48,351 nt of DNA from Prevotella sp. (GTDB lineage: Bacteria > Bacteroidota > Bacteroidia > Bacteroidales > Bacteroidaceae), in assembly GCA_017458125.1 (NCBI GenBank), contig JAFTGB010000067.1, positions 1 through 48,351 on the forward strand. The letters are read 5' to 3'. A program made the translations under genes and the position numbers. Position 1 is the first letter of the stretch. Every line of letters starts with the position of its first letter. The notes beneath the pieces are model-generated. The model did not search any database, had not been told where the DNA came from, and worked only from the letters and a program-made list of their open reading frames with translations. Shown in pieces: positions 2,307-6,367 of this stretch.

Positions 2307-2432
2307 CAAAAAGCGATAAAATGCAGAGAGAATAACGATATACGGAATAAAAGCATTAACTTTGCAAACGAAATTTGGCTGAAAGATGTCGGATGTGTAT
2401 GAAGTCTGATGGCTGATGTGAAATATAATATG

Positions 2433-2440
2433 TATCTTTG
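2433..2440 (+). promoter_or_regulatory. -7 box (TATCTTTG) that fixes the downstream start
   Basis: An exact TAnnTTTG box sits 11 bp before ATG 2451. It excludes the upstream in-frame ATG at 2409 as the start for this transcript. A similar box, TAACTTTG at 2357-2364, is followed by a closely related sequence (CTTTGCAAACGAAAT versus CTTTGCAAGCGAAAT). The promoter region therefore seems partly duplicated. Confidence 0.5.
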
Positions 2441-2450
2441 CAAGCGAAAT

Positions 2451-3950
2451 ATGAATATGGACGAGAAAACGATAAAGGAAGCACTGCTCAAAGGCGAGCG
2501 TGTAACTTTGGAGTGCAAGAAGGCTAAGTCTGAAGTTCCCAAAGAACTTTGGAATACGTACTCTGCCTTTGCAAATACTATCGGCGGCTTAATACTGCTT
2601 GGCGTAGAGGAACATCGGAAAGAGACTGATCCTGCCAAACGCTTTGAGATAATAGGTGTTGACAATCATCAGAAGATTCTGACGGACTTCTGGAACACCC
2701 TCGACAGCGACAAGGTGAATGAGAACATCCTTCTTGACAACGATGTTGAGGTGGTGAATATGGATGGAGCACAGATTGTTTGCATTCGTGTTCCTCAGGC
2801 AGACTGGAGAGCAAAGCCTATCTATCTGAACGGCAATGTATATAAAGGTACATATAGGCGCAACAATGAGGGTGACTATCATTGTACAGAGGCTCAGGTG
2901 AAAGCGATGATACGTGATTCAAATGTGGATGGCAACGATAGCATCCTGATAGAGTACTATGGCATGGATGATATTGATCCCGATTCCTTGCGTCAGTACC
3001 GTACCGAGTTTAGGCAGGAGAATAGTACCCACGTTTGGAACAGGGTTGACGATAAGACTTTCCTCAGAAATCTTGGTGGCTATACTGAGGACAGACAGAC
3101 TGGCAGAGAGGGATTGACGCTGGCCGGACTGATGATGTTTGGCAAGGGACTTGCCATCAGAGACCGTTTTGCAAACTTCCGCATGGACTATTTAGACATG
3201 AGCCATCTGGTGGGTGATGAGCGGTATCATGACCGACTGACATACGATGGACTATGGGAGAACAACCTGTATCAGTTTTTCCGCATCGTATCACCAAAGG
3301 TTCAGTTTGACCTGCCGAGACCTTTCAAATTGGAGAAAGGCGGCAAGAGAAATGACGACACACCTCAACATGAGGCTGTTCGTGAAGCCTTTACCAATGC
3401 CATTATCCACTGCGACCTGATGATGGATGCTGGCATTCTGAGAATAGAGAAGCATGATGACCGTCTATGTTTCCGCAATCCTGGACTATTGAAGTTGCCA
3501 GTAGAGGCCATCTATCGAGGCGGTAACTCAAAGGCTCGTAATCCAAAGATTCAGAATATGCTTCGGATGATTGGCTTTGGTGAGAATGTCGGTTCTGGCT
3601 TCCCCAAGATTATCGCAGCGTGGAAAGAAACGAATTGGGGTGAGCCTCAGCTGATGAATAAATTGGATGTTGACGAAGTTGAACTGATACTACCTGTGCC
3701 TTCACCTAAGTCAAATAGTACTGGGGTGTCCGAAGGGGTGTCTAATAGGGTGCCTAATGGGGTGTCTGATACTGCGAAGGCTATATATTCTCATATTCAA
3801 GCAGATCCTAATATCAGCAGAAACGAGTTGGTTAACCTTACAGGAATTTCGCTCAAAAACGTTCAGAAGCATATAAATAGGCTCAAAGAGTTAGGGTTAA
3901 TACGGCGAATCGGTTCAACAAGGTTTGGCTATTGGGAGATAATAGAGTGA
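2451..3950 (+). CDS. AlbA_2 (Schlafen-like) ATP-binding transcriptional regulator
   Basis: About 499 residues from MNMDEKTIKEAL; ATG 2457 is an alternative. The N-terminal 130 residues form the AlbA_2/divergent AAA-4 domain (KGERVTLECKKAKSEVPK, then FANTIGGLILLGVEE). A GHKL-like HATPase_c_4 region follows (HEAVREAFTNAIIHCD, RNPGLLKLP, GFGENVGSGFPKI). The protein ends in a winged helix (SRNELVNLTGISLKNVQKHI). Family members are annotated as ATP-dependent helicase-like or regulatory proteins and are common in defence and mobile islands; their biochemistry is poorly defined. Four tetrapeptide repeats (GVSE GVSN RVPN GVSD) link the ATPase and HTH parts. The next ORF is a second copy of the linker plus HTH. 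Confidence 0.8.
   Translation: MNMDEKTIKEALLKGERVTLECKKAKSEVPKELWNTYSAFANTIGGLILLGVEEHRKETDPAKRFEIIGVDNHQKILTDFWNTLDSDKVNENILLDNDVEVVNMDGAQIVCIRVPQADWRAKPIYLNGNVYKGTYRRNNEGDYHCTEAQVKAMIRDSNVDGNDSILIEYYGMDDIDPDSLRQYRTEFRQENSTHVWNRVDDKTFLRNLGGYTEDRQTGREGLTLAGLMMFGKGLAIRDRFANFRMDYLDMSHLVGDERYHDRLTYDGLWENNLYQFFRIVSPKVQFDLPRPFKLEKGGKRNDDTPQHEAVREAFTNAIIHCDLMMDAGILRIEKHDDRLCFRNPGLLKLPVEAIYRGGNSKARNPKIQNMLRMIGFGENVGSGFPKIIAAWKETNWGEPQLMNKLDVDEVELILPVPSPKSNSTGVSEGVSNRVPNGVSDTAKAIYSHIQADPNISRNELVNLTGISLKNVQKHINRLKELGLIRRIGSTRFGYWEIIE
3723..3770 (+). repeat. 4 x 12-bp tandem repeat encoding G-V-S-x linker
   Basis: Four 12-bp units based on GGGGTGTCTAAT encode GVSE, GVSN, RVPN and GVSD inside the regulator gene. 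A diverged set of four 12-bp units recurs at 3968-4015 in the neighbouring ORF. Changes in unit number would keep the reading frame. Confidence 0.75.
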
Positions 3951-4195
3951 ACTGTAGGTTGCTTGAAGGGTTGTCTATAAGGTTATCTAAAGGGTTGTCT
4001 AAAGGGTTATCTGAAACTGCCGCTAATATATATAAGATGATATATGCAGATAATTATATTACAAGAAGTGAGATTGCGAATAGAATCGGAATATCTGTGA
4101 CAGCAGTCCAAAAGCATATAAACAAGCTAAAATCCCTGAAATTCCTTGACCGTGACGGATCTACTGGTCATGGTAGTTGGATAGTAATAGAGTGA
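3932..4195 (+). CDS. Free-standing winged-helix ORF, duplicate of upstream C-terminus
   Basis: An 87-residue ORF overlapping the end of the regulator gene by 19 bp in the -1 frame. Its sequence from GLSI RLSK GLSK GLSE through an HTH (TRSEIANRIGISVTAVQKHI) to GSWIVIE aligns end to end with the C-terminal ~80 residues of the preceding protein (from GVSE to GYWEIIE), including the tetrapeptide linker. This is a tandem module duplication that has diverged at the protein level and lost the frame. It could be a small independent DNA-binding protein, a module joined by -1 frameshifting, or a decaying relic. No canonical slippery heptamer is seen just before the TGA at 3948-3950. The start codon is uncertain. 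Confidence 0.55.
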   Translation: MGDNRVNCRLLEGLSIRLSKGLSKGLSETAANIYKMIYADNYITRSEIANRIGISVTAVQKHINKLKSLKFLDRDGSTGHGSWIVIE

Positions 4196-4197
4196 GA

Positions 4198-4440
4198 TAA
4201 TCGACATGTCATTACGGTAGAGGGATGTAGCCTAATACGCACTTTTCTGGCAGGTGCCATATAAGATGCCACAGTGATTGCAGAAACAGAGAGGTTTCGA
4301 CTACTTTTAGCGATCTTTTGTACATAAACACCACATAACCTCGACTTAAATTCAAGTCATAAGTTCGACTAAATGGGGGCATATAACGATGCGTCATATC
4401 GGATTATCCTTTGTTACTGCACCGCAAGCCTTGCGGAGAT
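4198..4440. other. Intergenic stretch, nothing recognised
   Basis: About 240 bp between the HTH ORF and the promoter of the next gene. Short ORFs on either strand have no recognisable content. It marks the change from the AT-richer accessory patch to the core-like region. Confidence 0.4.
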
Positions 4441-4471
4441 TTTGCGATGTGCGGAAAGTTTGGTATCTTTG
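4441..4471 (+). promoter_or_regulatory. Promoter of the unknown gene-ftsZ operon
   Basis: TTTG at 4441-4444, a 19-bp spacer, and TATCTTTG at 4464-4471. This is a full match to the Bacteroidetes sigma-ABfr consensus, 30 bp before the ATG at 4502. Confidence 0.75.
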
Positions 4472-4501
4472 CAGTCGCTTACCGTAAAACCGTAAGATGT
4501 A

Positions 4502-5083
4502 ATGATGACAGAAACGCAACAGACATACGACGAGAAGGCGCAGCAACTGAGGCGGCTGACCCAGGAACTGGTGGCTGCCGGCAGGCGCGACCTGTTGCTG
4601 AAAGCCATCGGTGTGCCGCTGTTGGAGGAACTTCGCATCGAGGCTGCCAGAGGTAAACTGTCGAGGCTGGTCATCACAAAGGACTACCGCTTTTGGCTGG
4701 CCGACTACGGCAAGGAGGTGGAGCTGCAGCCCGTACACAAAGCGGTGTACCTGCTGTTTCTGGCTCATCCCGAGGGAATCGAGTTCAAACAGCTGGCCGA
4801 GTACAGGGATGAGCTGACGCGCTATTACCTGCAGACAGCACGCTGGATGGATAGGGAGAAGGTCGTGGAGAGCGTCGGCCATCTGGTGAACCCGTTGGAC
4901 AATGCCATCAACGAGAAGTGTTCGCGCATCAAGAAGGTGCTGACTGAGCTGATGGATGAGTATTCGGCCAGCTACTACATCATCAGCGGACATACGAAGA
5001 AGCATATCGCCGGGCGTGTGTGGTACGAGCGGCTGAAGGTCATCACGCTGCCGAGGGAATTAGTAATCGACGAAACAAAATAG
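4502..5083 (+). CDS. Hypothetical protein in operon with ftsZ
   Basis: A 193-residue soluble protein with a charged, probably helical N-terminus (about residues 5-60) and no signal or membrane segment. It starts MMTETQQTYDEK, and either of the two adjacent ATGs could be used. I recognise no domain. The middle (HKAVYLLFLAHPEGIEFKQL) resembles the helix-turn pattern of small winged-helix folds, but I would not assign one. It is preceded by a strong promoter and separated by only 6 bp from the FtsZ gene, so the two are almost certainly cotranscribed. A role linked to that FtsZ (partner or regulator) is inferred from position alone. Confidence 0.75.
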   Translation: MMTETQQTYDEKAQQLRRLTQELVAAGRRDLLLKAIGVPLLEELRIEAARGKLSRLVITKDYRFWLADYGKEVELQPVHKAVYLLFLAHPEGIEFKQLAEYRDELTRYYLQTARWMDREKVVESVGHLVNPLDNAINEKCSRIKKVLTELMDEYSASYYIISGHTKKHIAGRVWYERLKVITLPRELVIDETK

Positions 5084-5089
5084 AAGGTT

Positions 5090-6367
5090 ATGGGAGAAGA
5101 GAATACTTTGCTGGAGTTTGCAGTGCCTATAGAAGATAAGATGCAAGGCATCATCAAGGTCATCGGTGTCGGCGGAGGCGGTTGTAACGCTGTCCGCAAC
5201 ATGTATAACGAGGGCGTGAAGGGCGTGACGTATGCCGTGTGCAACACGGACAGCCAGTCGTTGTCGCGCTCGCCGGTGCCAGTGAAGCTGATGCTTGGCA
5301 AGTCGGGCTTGGGTGCCGGTGCCAATCCGGAACTGGGCAAGAGCGAGGCCGAGACGAACAGGGAGGACATCAAGAAACTGTTGTCGGACGGTACGAAGAT
5401 GGTGTTTGTCACGGCTGGCATGGGCGGTGGTACGGGCACGGGTGCCGCCCCTGTCATAGCCGGTATAGCCAAGGACATGGGCCTGCTGACGGTGGGTGTG
5501 GTGACCATACCTTTCTATTTCGAGAAACGGCGCAAAATCATCAAGGCACTGAAGGGTGTGGACGAGTTGCGCAAGAACGTCGATGCCATATTGATAGTGA
5601 ACAACGAGCGGCTGTGCGACGTGTATGCCGACGCTGACATCTCGCTGCCTGAGGCCTTCCAGCGTGCCGACAACATTCTGGTGGATGCCGTAAAAGGCAT
5701 CTCGGAACTTATAACGATGCCCAGCGACGGGGGTATCAAGAGTGACTTCCGCGACGTAGAGACCACTATGCGCGACGGCGGCGGAGCCATTATGGCTATG
5801 GGGCGCGCCAGCGGTTCCAACCGTGTGGAGAAGGCTATCATCACAGCCTTGGACTCACCGCTGCTCTATGGCAACGACATCGGCAAGGCCAAGCGCATAC
5901 TGTTTAACATCTATGCCAGCAGCGAGCACCCCATCTTCGTGCGTGAGTTGCAGGAGATTGACGATTTCTTCGACCAGCTGGACCCTAATATCGACGTCAT
6001 CTGGGGTACAGCCACTGACGACTCGTTAGGCGAGGATGCCAAGGTGACCATTCTGGCCACCGGACTGGAGTCCGATCTGAAACAGGAGGTGAAAGCCAAC
6101 ATCCACCGCAACGACGACGAGGCTTACGAGGAACTGATACCCCTGTTGTATAAACCTACGGAGCGGCATACGCCGTCGGACGTTTTGATGCCTGAGCCGC
6201 CATTCACTGTTGAGCTTGCACCGGAGGAGGAAGAGGACAGCAAGATAAACATGGTGCCAGCCCCTGATCCAGTTGAGAATGAAAGGGTAGGAACCAGCGA
6301 GGAACCGACAGCAGTAGACAAGCTGAAGGGCTGGTTGTCGCGAATGGTCAAAGAGGTGGCAGAGTAG
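5090..6367 (+). CDS. ftsZ: FtsZ-family tubulin GTPase (divergent)
   Basis: 425 residues. The GTPase domain is clear: VIGVGGGGCNAV (24-35), NTDSQSL (52-58), the tubulin signature GGGTGTG (112-118), the E145 nucleotide contact, and LITMP before the T7 loop. The T7 loop reads IKSDFRDV (216-223), keeping both catalytic acidic residues (D219, D222) but replacing the usual Asn with Lys217. The segment after E145 (EKRRK) has Lys where FtsZ normally has the nucleotide-contacting Arg. Residues ~345-405 form an acidic linker. The C-terminus (KLKGWLSRMVKEVAE) is a basic amphipathic helix rather than the usual short FtsA-binding peptide. The gene lies outside a dcw cluster, beside trpA, so it may be a second FtsZ. 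It converges on trpA with 8 bp between them. Confidence 0.9.
   Translation: MGEENTLLEFAVPIEDKMQGIIKVIGVGGGGCNAVRNMYNEGVKGVTYAVCNTDSQSLSRSPVPVKLMLGKSGLGAGANPELGKSEAETNREDIKKLLSDGTKMVFVTAGMGGGTGTGAAPVIAGIAKDMGLLTVGVVTIPFYFEKRRKIIKALKGVDELRKNVDAILIVNNERLCDVYADADISLPEAFQRADNILVDAVKGISELITMPSDGGIKSDFRDVETTMRDGGGAIMAMGRASGSNRVEKAIITALDSPLLYGNDIGKAKRILFNIYASSEHPIFVRELQEIDDFFDQLDPNIDVIWGTATDDSLGEDAKVTILATGLESDLKQEVKANIHRNDDEAYEELIPLLYKPTERHTPSDVLMPEPPFTVELAPEEEEDSKINMVPAPDPVENERVGTSEEPTAVDKLKGWLSRMVKEVAE

Follow-up and report, generated by a model that had tools for sequence, protein, structure and literature searches.

A second FtsZ of Prevotella travels with a winged-helix partner in a two-gene cassette and carries a putative membrane-anchoring helix

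The ftsZ gene is commonly viewed as essential, present once and part of a conserved cluster. Filaments made and attached to membranes by FtsZ alone are known mainly from engineered FtsZ and from a small number of natural examples, and TubZ-TubR-tubC combines a tubulin family protein, a winged-helix protein and a DNA site. Direct membrane binding through an amphipathic helix has been shown for OdinFtsZ1 of Odinarchaeota, in a paper that also cites Mycoplasma and chloroplast FtsZ as membrane-binding (PMC12583498). FtsZl1 and FtsZl2 are described as FtsZ superfamily members unlikely to be standard division FtsZs, with FtsZl1 found in vWA-type operons (PMC2875224), and CapRel immunity is described as sensing a complex of Gp0.4 with FtsZ (PMC13423816). 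Here we analyze a stretch of 48,351 nucleotides from Prevotella sp. (contig JAFTGB010000067.1 of assembly GCA_017458125.1, positions 1 to 48,351; hereafter the window), in which an additional ftsZ gene, ftsZ2, lies next to the gene of a predicted winged-helix protein, the partner. The best overall explanation, to which we assign a probability of about 60%, is a mobile cassette equipped with an operator and a promoter of its own, a self-anchoring FtsZ2 and an autoregulating partner.

The two open reading frames (ORFs) lie on the plus strand with a gap of 6 bp: the partner gene (4502-5083, 193 residues) is followed by ftsZ2 (5090-6367, 425 residues). FtsZ2 matches the Pfam families PF00091 and PF12327 and scores 320.6 bits on the NCBIfam FtsZ equivalog TIGR00065, above its curated threshold of 295.2. 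The source genome (88% complete, 86 contigs) contains just one further match to the tubulin family. This is a canonical ftsZ that follows directly on a gene reading as ftsA; the canonical product has the T7 loop INLDFNDV and the tail IVQGTIRFA. Since the same genome holds this separate canonical gene, the window gene is its second FtsZ, as an earlier reading made from the sequence alone (the sequence-only reading) had supposed. That reading also placed the gene outside a dcw cluster, and no dcw genes adjoin it.

FtsZ2 has the GTP-binding signature of FtsZ, as noted from the sequence at the outset. The catalytic aspartates D219 and D222 are kept in all 61 FtsZ2 sequences found in the genus. The T7 loop region (residues 211-222, 5720-5755) contains an insertion at 211-212, with position 212 filled in 44/61 FtsZ2 and in 0/31 canonical sequences. 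Two residues that the sequence-only reading had singled out are indeed present in the window protein. One is Lys217 in the T7 segment GGIKSDFRDV; it is a minority trait and was rejected as a family mark, position 217 being Asn in 32, Lys in 15, Asp in 10, Gln in 3 and Met in 1 of the 61 proteins. The other, Lys149, stands where a nucleotide-contacting Arg was expected (Arg143 of PDB chain 2vam, which we take to be B. subtilis FtsZ). It occurs in 61/61 FtsZ2 and equally in the 31/31 canonical FtsZ compared, and was dropped as a special feature. Because the T7 lysine is so infrequent and the Arg-to-Lys change is canonical as well, these residue clues are weak. Beyond the FtsZ core, an additional helix (residues 342-354, 6113-6151, motif YEELIPLLYKP) is conserved in FtsZ2 and, by eye, was not seen in 11 aligned canonical FtsZ of the genus. 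We considered this YEELI-LYKP helix as a partner-binding site and rejected the idea, because FtsZ2 proteins without a partner carry a version of it too.

FtsZ2 is present in at least 60 of the 150 genomes of the genus (61 genes among the matches listed). These proteins are 59-81% identical to the window protein, the window itself aside; the canonical FtsZ rows listed are about 50-57% identical to it. Among 301 genomes of the family, partner matches above 290 bits occur only in the genus of the window and in two genomes of other genera, G208 (three) and G304 (G, C and L numbers are our handles for genomes, contigs and loci), and the FtsZ2 matches agree with this distribution. Across a phylum-wide set of 395 genomes, no FtsZ from outside the family reached an E-value of 1e-100. 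The partner also occurs in named records, among them Xylanibacter brevis ATCC 19188 and Prevotella ruminicola KHT3 (two contigs). G045, G024 and G154, each assembled as a single contig, have the cassette on the chromosome, and in Segatella hominis HDD12 a 317-kb replicon carries it, with parA and repB nearby; the plasmid collection gave one close match, from Segatella hominis. G208 has three FtsZ2 cassettes on short contigs (L384, L385 and L386), two of them nearly identical, and five FtsZ in all, the other two being a deep paralog and a further FtsZ.

Phylogenetic analysis of 82 proteins (31 of the 60 full FtsZ2, 20 canonical FtsZ of the genus and 31 others; midpoint root, several long branches) revealed a branch with 100/100 support that divides them in two. 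FtsZ2 and single paralogs of several other genera of the family lie on one side (51 rows), canonical FtsZ on the other (31 rows). The row labeled G208can is the deep paralog (contig C76), not a canonical FtsZ; the separate, higher-scoring FtsZ of that genome is on C71. Weak tubulin-domain matches (E-values 2e-7 to 6e-4) were also seen in ORFs of about 470-530 residues within the genus (G144:C28, G118:C14, G117:C1, G108:C35, G035:C3, G061:C1 and G102:C11). We rejected a phage origin of FtsZ2: two short partial matches aside, the FtsZ proteins of viral contigs share at most about 45% identity with it in the core, and those in the phage collection, whose records are mostly unannotated, share less than 60%. 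No locus of the partner on viral contigs was confirmed.

A dedicated partner had been proposed together with the second FtsZ, and co-occurrence bears this out. The partner is adjacent, within 475 bp, in 56/61 FtsZ2 loci and in three arrangements: FtsZ2 precedes the partner in 43 loci, follows it in 4 (including the window) and is divergent from it in 9, one of the last having been scored convergent but being an overlap of start codons. When neighboring genes were clustered for the window and 20 further loci, the FtsZ2-partner pair comprised the only genes generally common, with synteny in a few related loci. Mirror-tree comparison of 53 loci gave a correlation (rho) of 0.80 between FtsZ2 and partner distances and of 0.28 between FtsZ2 and canonical FtsZ; all correlations exceed 500 shuffles, and the partial correlation is 0.78. 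Eight of the 61 rows were dropped because the partner, the canonical gene or a complete FtsZ2 was missing, and G071 contributes two rows that share one canonical gene. Because FtsZ2 distances track the partner far more closely than canonical FtsZ, FtsZ2 and the partner constitute a mobile two-gene cassette that moves mainly as a unit, although some vertical signal is present. Decayed copies occur, as in G125, where the partner is in two pieces beside a shortened FtsZ2. From the ORF list, the genes next to the window cassette read as a convergent tryptophan operon. In 7/8 loci of relatives, the position after trpA is taken by an ORF of about 440-480 residues, not by the cassette; these ORFs look alike and pectinase-like by eye, and three of the seven loci (G007, G035 and G020) belong to genomes with a cassette elsewhere. 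No insertion boundary was found in the eight trpA loci. This mobility, the deep paralog clade and the putative operator described below went beyond what the sequence-only reading had foreseen.

The C-terminus of the window FtsZ2, DKLKGWLSRMVKEVAE, contains a predicted amphipathic helix (residues 408-424, 6311-6361) where canonical FtsZ has its tail, as had been anticipated. By a single moment threshold such a helix is present in 52/60 FtsZ2 of the genus, in 13/19 further clade members and in 0/57 canonical rows; one sequence is duplicated among the canonical rows, and a tail lacking any proline-free window received a score of zero. Against shuffled helices, 58/60, 16/19 and 4/57, respectively, stand out. 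A similar helix, SKLGRWLKRAATEIVKEDD, forms the C-terminus of the FtsA-like protein encoded in the source genome, and 10/11 tails picked as FtsA-like pass the same threshold, although the motif used to pick them favors such tails and one is probably not FtsA. Direct membrane attachment of FtsZ2 through this conserved helix is thus a well-supported prediction. The canonical-type tail, which in FtsZ binds FtsA or another anchor, is absent, and we regard FtsZ2 as an FtsZ-family paralog rather than the canonical division FtsZ.

For the partner, the structure model predicts an FtsZ2-specific two-helix hairpin (residues 9-50, 4526-4651) followed by a winged-helix DNA-binding domain (residues 53-190, 4658-5071), within which residues 53-186 have the OmpR/PhoB-type fold. 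Residues 9-52 are 55% identical among 55 partners and 15% identical to 8 aligned paralogs, which makes the hairpin a candidate FtsZ2-binding or dimerization part. Most probably the partner acts as a DNA-binding regulator and is not a subunit of the filament. FtsZ2 relatives of other genera (L392:2519-3304, L393:7777-8535 and L391:1837-3072) also stand beside winged-helix proteins, whose N-terminal parts are different and match no Pfam family.

Upstream of the two window genes lies the promoter that the sequence-only reading had assigned to both of them, TTTG (4441-4444)-N19-TATCTTTG (4464-4471), on the plus strand; it matches TTTG-N19-TAnnTTTG, which we take to be the Bacteroidales consensus. 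TTTG-N17-22-TAnnTTTG occurs in 25/54 cassette upstream regions, compared with 0.38 expected from shuffles. Just before this promoter lies the palindrome GCAAGCCTTGC (4424-4434, plus strand), which is extended to the longer perfect palindrome CCGCAAGCCTTGCGG (4422-4436). It belongs to the motif GCAAG(C/G)CTTGC, the core 8-mers of which are found in 47/54 upstream regions (about one expected), and its core letters are conserved while its flanks are not. The looser CAAGnCTTG is present near 54 of 60 cassettes (G123 was left out of this count), namely in 54/56 with a partner and in 0/4 testable cassettes without one (Fisher p 3e-5, not corrected for kinship). The six lacking it are the partner-less G126, G024, G030 and G064, in which a separate search found no partner relative either, the divergent G102, and G121, where the contig starts at the gene. 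From the end of the palindrome to TAnnTTTG the distance is 29 bp in 42/54 cases, 28 bp in 1 and 36-37 bp in 7, the outliers being G050 (21 bp, but also 29), G110 (2 bp), and G111 and G071b (47-48 bp).

Further loci show the same association. In 66 loci taken from the best 80 of 275 found, with proteins 72-97% identical to the first set, the palindrome occurs in 65 at 28-29 or 36-37 bp when sought anywhere in the locus and in 63 under strict proximity; the three strict misses are one at a contig end (L288) and two in which the pattern did not find the partner ORF. Among the stretches checked for 19 more FtsZ2-clade genes (other genera, G154 and Segatella hominis), it is present in 8/9 with a winged-helix neighbor and 0/10 without one (Fisher 1e-4); G208 counts three times here, two of its copies, on contigs of 3.5 and 4.5 kb, being nearly identical and possibly a single copy that was assembled twice. 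G221, counted as lacking the palindrome, has a ACAAGGCTTGT site 1.45 kb from its FtsZ. Because the palindrome co-occurs with the partner at a nearly fixed distance from the promoter, it is the probable operator of the partner.

The exact palindrome is not confined to cassettes. Among 18 opened loci with exact copies, 4 are cassette sites, and 13 of the other 14 have no TAnnTTTG within 60 bp on either side. The remaining one, L447, has TAnnTTTG at 36 bp and lies about 3 kb from a winged-helix paralog of G004. The source genome contains two exact sites, the second inside an ORF and without a promoter. In 23 other genomes, counted for exact sites only in a comparison with Noc/SlmA-type nucleoid occlusion, where binding sites are numerous along the chromosome, we found 0-17 sites (mean 5.0) in the 14 that carry a full cassette and 0-8 (mean 3.0) in the other 9. 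GCAAGSCTTGC is often commoner than a reversed control even in genomes without FtsZ2 (8 versus 1 in G026). There is also a second class of site, ACAAGSCTTGT, with eight members 36 bp before TAnnTTTG in cassette loci (L099:7765, L101:4013, L103:14062, L104:12749, L108:12583, L112:4387, L113:6901 and L100:8290). Seven of these loci have a generic winged-helix paralog and in G099 none is in view; GCAAGSCTTGC accompanies the FtsZ2-type partner, in most cases at 29 bp. Since the ACAAGSCTTGT loci mostly hold generic paralogs, protein and site subtypes appear to be matched, which suggests a wider network of regulators and operators in Prevotella.

Taken together, these data fit a cassette that moves as a two-gene unit and would carry its own operator and promoter. 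FtsZ2, a GTP-binding paralog with kept catalytic aspartates, most likely forms filaments and would attach to the inner membrane by its own C-terminal helix, without FtsA. The partner would bind the palindrome beside the -33 box and autoregulate the cassette, as its co-occurrence and near-fixed spacing suggest, and the hairpin would probably sense FtsZ2 and thereby couple expression to FtsZ2 assembly. As to function, the least certain step, we tentatively suggest that FtsZ2 may be an accessory filament used conditionally, under stress or genetic conflict, to modify, back up or block the normal Z-ring.

Several observations concern the surroundings of cassettes. Eight winged-helix paralogs lie within about 5 kb of a cassette (8/36, binomial 4e-11, a value that depends on a hand count of 36 paralogs and an assumed 19-kb window per 3.3 Mb), and some paralogs belong to gene groups with DarT, DUF1810, zeta toxin or PIF1 helicase. 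One such group near an FtsZ2 cassette, L096:2688-6879, L112:220-4374 and L108:12631-18615, contains DUF6939, DarT, a PP2C-like protein and DUF1810 fused to a winged helix, and is possibly a conflict module of its own; its families were searched in L096 and assigned by clustering in L112 and part of L108. Pfam and PADLOC searches of 132 of 146 neighbor proteins gave, among the first 25 of 161 and the first 25 of 79 families, respectively, a mix of ordinary and defense-like genes, which we do not read as defense enrichment. In the window itself, an AlbA_2/Schlafen-type protein with a C-terminal winged helix is encoded at 2409-3950 and is overlapped by a small ORF (3932-4195) with a second winged helix, apparently a tandem duplication. 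A short RhuM-like ORF at 1839-2306 (PADLOC PDC-S05, E-value 8e-32; Pfam RhuM under its cut-off) is probably a truncated copy. Long ORFs overlapping both cassette genes in other frames (4394-5005 minus, 5239-5637 plus) look like codon-bias shadows.

These neighborhoods bear on what the cassette is for. It might be a conflict module, with FtsZ2 as the effector or bait of a phage defense or toxin-antitoxin-like pair and the winged-helix protein as the regulatory half; division would be poisoned by mixed polymers, or phage inhibitors of FtsZ would be soaked up, triggering or sparing the cell. The patchy, mobile, at times multi-copy and decaying cassette, the paralogs near it, the AlbA/Schlafen gene and RhuM-like fragment of the window and the CapRel precedent all speak for such a role, which we consider possible, if doubtful, as many neighbors are ordinary genes, both cassette proteins have only weak partial matches to the PADLOC defense models, and the partner lacks confirmation on viral contigs. 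A more specific version, in which FtsZ2 is bait or effector against division-attacking agents, the partner turns on the cassette upon sensing FtsZ2 in its free or captured form, and the whole belongs to a wider Bacteroidales winged-helix network with matched CAAGSCTTG operators, seems to us rather doubtful. Because of the DarT, zeta toxin, AlbA/Schlafen and winged-helix neighborhoods and the sensing of FtsZ by CapRel, a conflict role is nevertheless the most interesting open reading.

Three other explanations were also considered. An ordinary, vertically inherited ftsZ duplicate working in normal division beside an unrelated neighbor would agree with the deep paralog clade across genera, the limited synteny and the weak but real correlation with canonical FtsZ; it is unlikely given the patchy distribution, the largely discordant trees, the linked partner and a palindrome tied to that partner. 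The combination of a tubulin, a winged-helix protein and an upstream site, and the Segatella hominis replicon, recall DNA partition of the TubZ-TubR-tubC type, with FtsZ2 as the filament, the partner as adaptor and the palindrome as centromere. However, the palindrome is single, the 321 bp upstream contain one pair of 12-nt direct repeats and no inverted repeats, most loci have one site near the cassette, three cassettes are chromosomal as noted above, and FtsZ2 is an FtsZ by family score, with the FtsZ_C domain and a membrane helix, so that partition is quite improbable. It is more improbable still that the palindrome terminates transcription of the gene upstream or forms a hairpin close to the promoter instead of serving as the partner's operator. 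The window palindrome can fold strongly (z -4.46) and a T run follows it in some loci, but conservation is limited to the core letters, the distance to the -7 element is 29 bp in most loci, and the palindrome is missing where the partner is missing, both within the genus and in the stretches checked outside it.

In the cassette reading, an FtsZ is an accessory, mobile gene that comes with a regulator and a putative operator, and its product has a predicted membrane anchor of a type usually found on FtsA. If both filament formation and membrane binding hold, FtsZ2 would be a natural one-protein Z-filament on membranes and a handle on division control in rumen Prevotella, and the apparently matched regulator-operator pairs would be a directly testable regulatory code. 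Among the open-license literature matches listed for a second FtsZ in Bacteroidota or Prevotella and for related ideas, there was no report of the FtsZ2 clade.

Compared with known systems, the cassette differs from TubZ-TubR-tubC in its single operator-like site, FtsZ-type sequence and membrane helix. FtsZ2 resembles FtsZl1 and FtsZl2 in being an improbable candidate for the standard division FtsZ; unlike them, it is a true FtsZ by family score, and the winged-helix partner alone is generally conserved beside it. The OdinFtsZ1 helix is N-terminal, whereas that of FtsZ2 is C-terminal, and its description, as far as consulted, mentions no mobile cassette, winged-helix partner or operator (PMC12583498). 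The partner shares a predicted fold with OmpR/PhoB-type regulators but has no receiver domain, an FtsZ2-specific hairpin in front and a palindromic putative site. The helix of FtsZ2 is similar in amphipathic make-up to the C-terminal membrane-targeting helix of FtsA, yet it sits on FtsZ itself. With FtsZ, finally, FtsZ2 shares the GTP-binding signature, the catalytic aspartates and the predicted fold; it differs in having its own amphipathic helix in place of the canonical tail, in the T7 insertion of most members, and in belonging to a mobile cassette with a probable regulator and operator.
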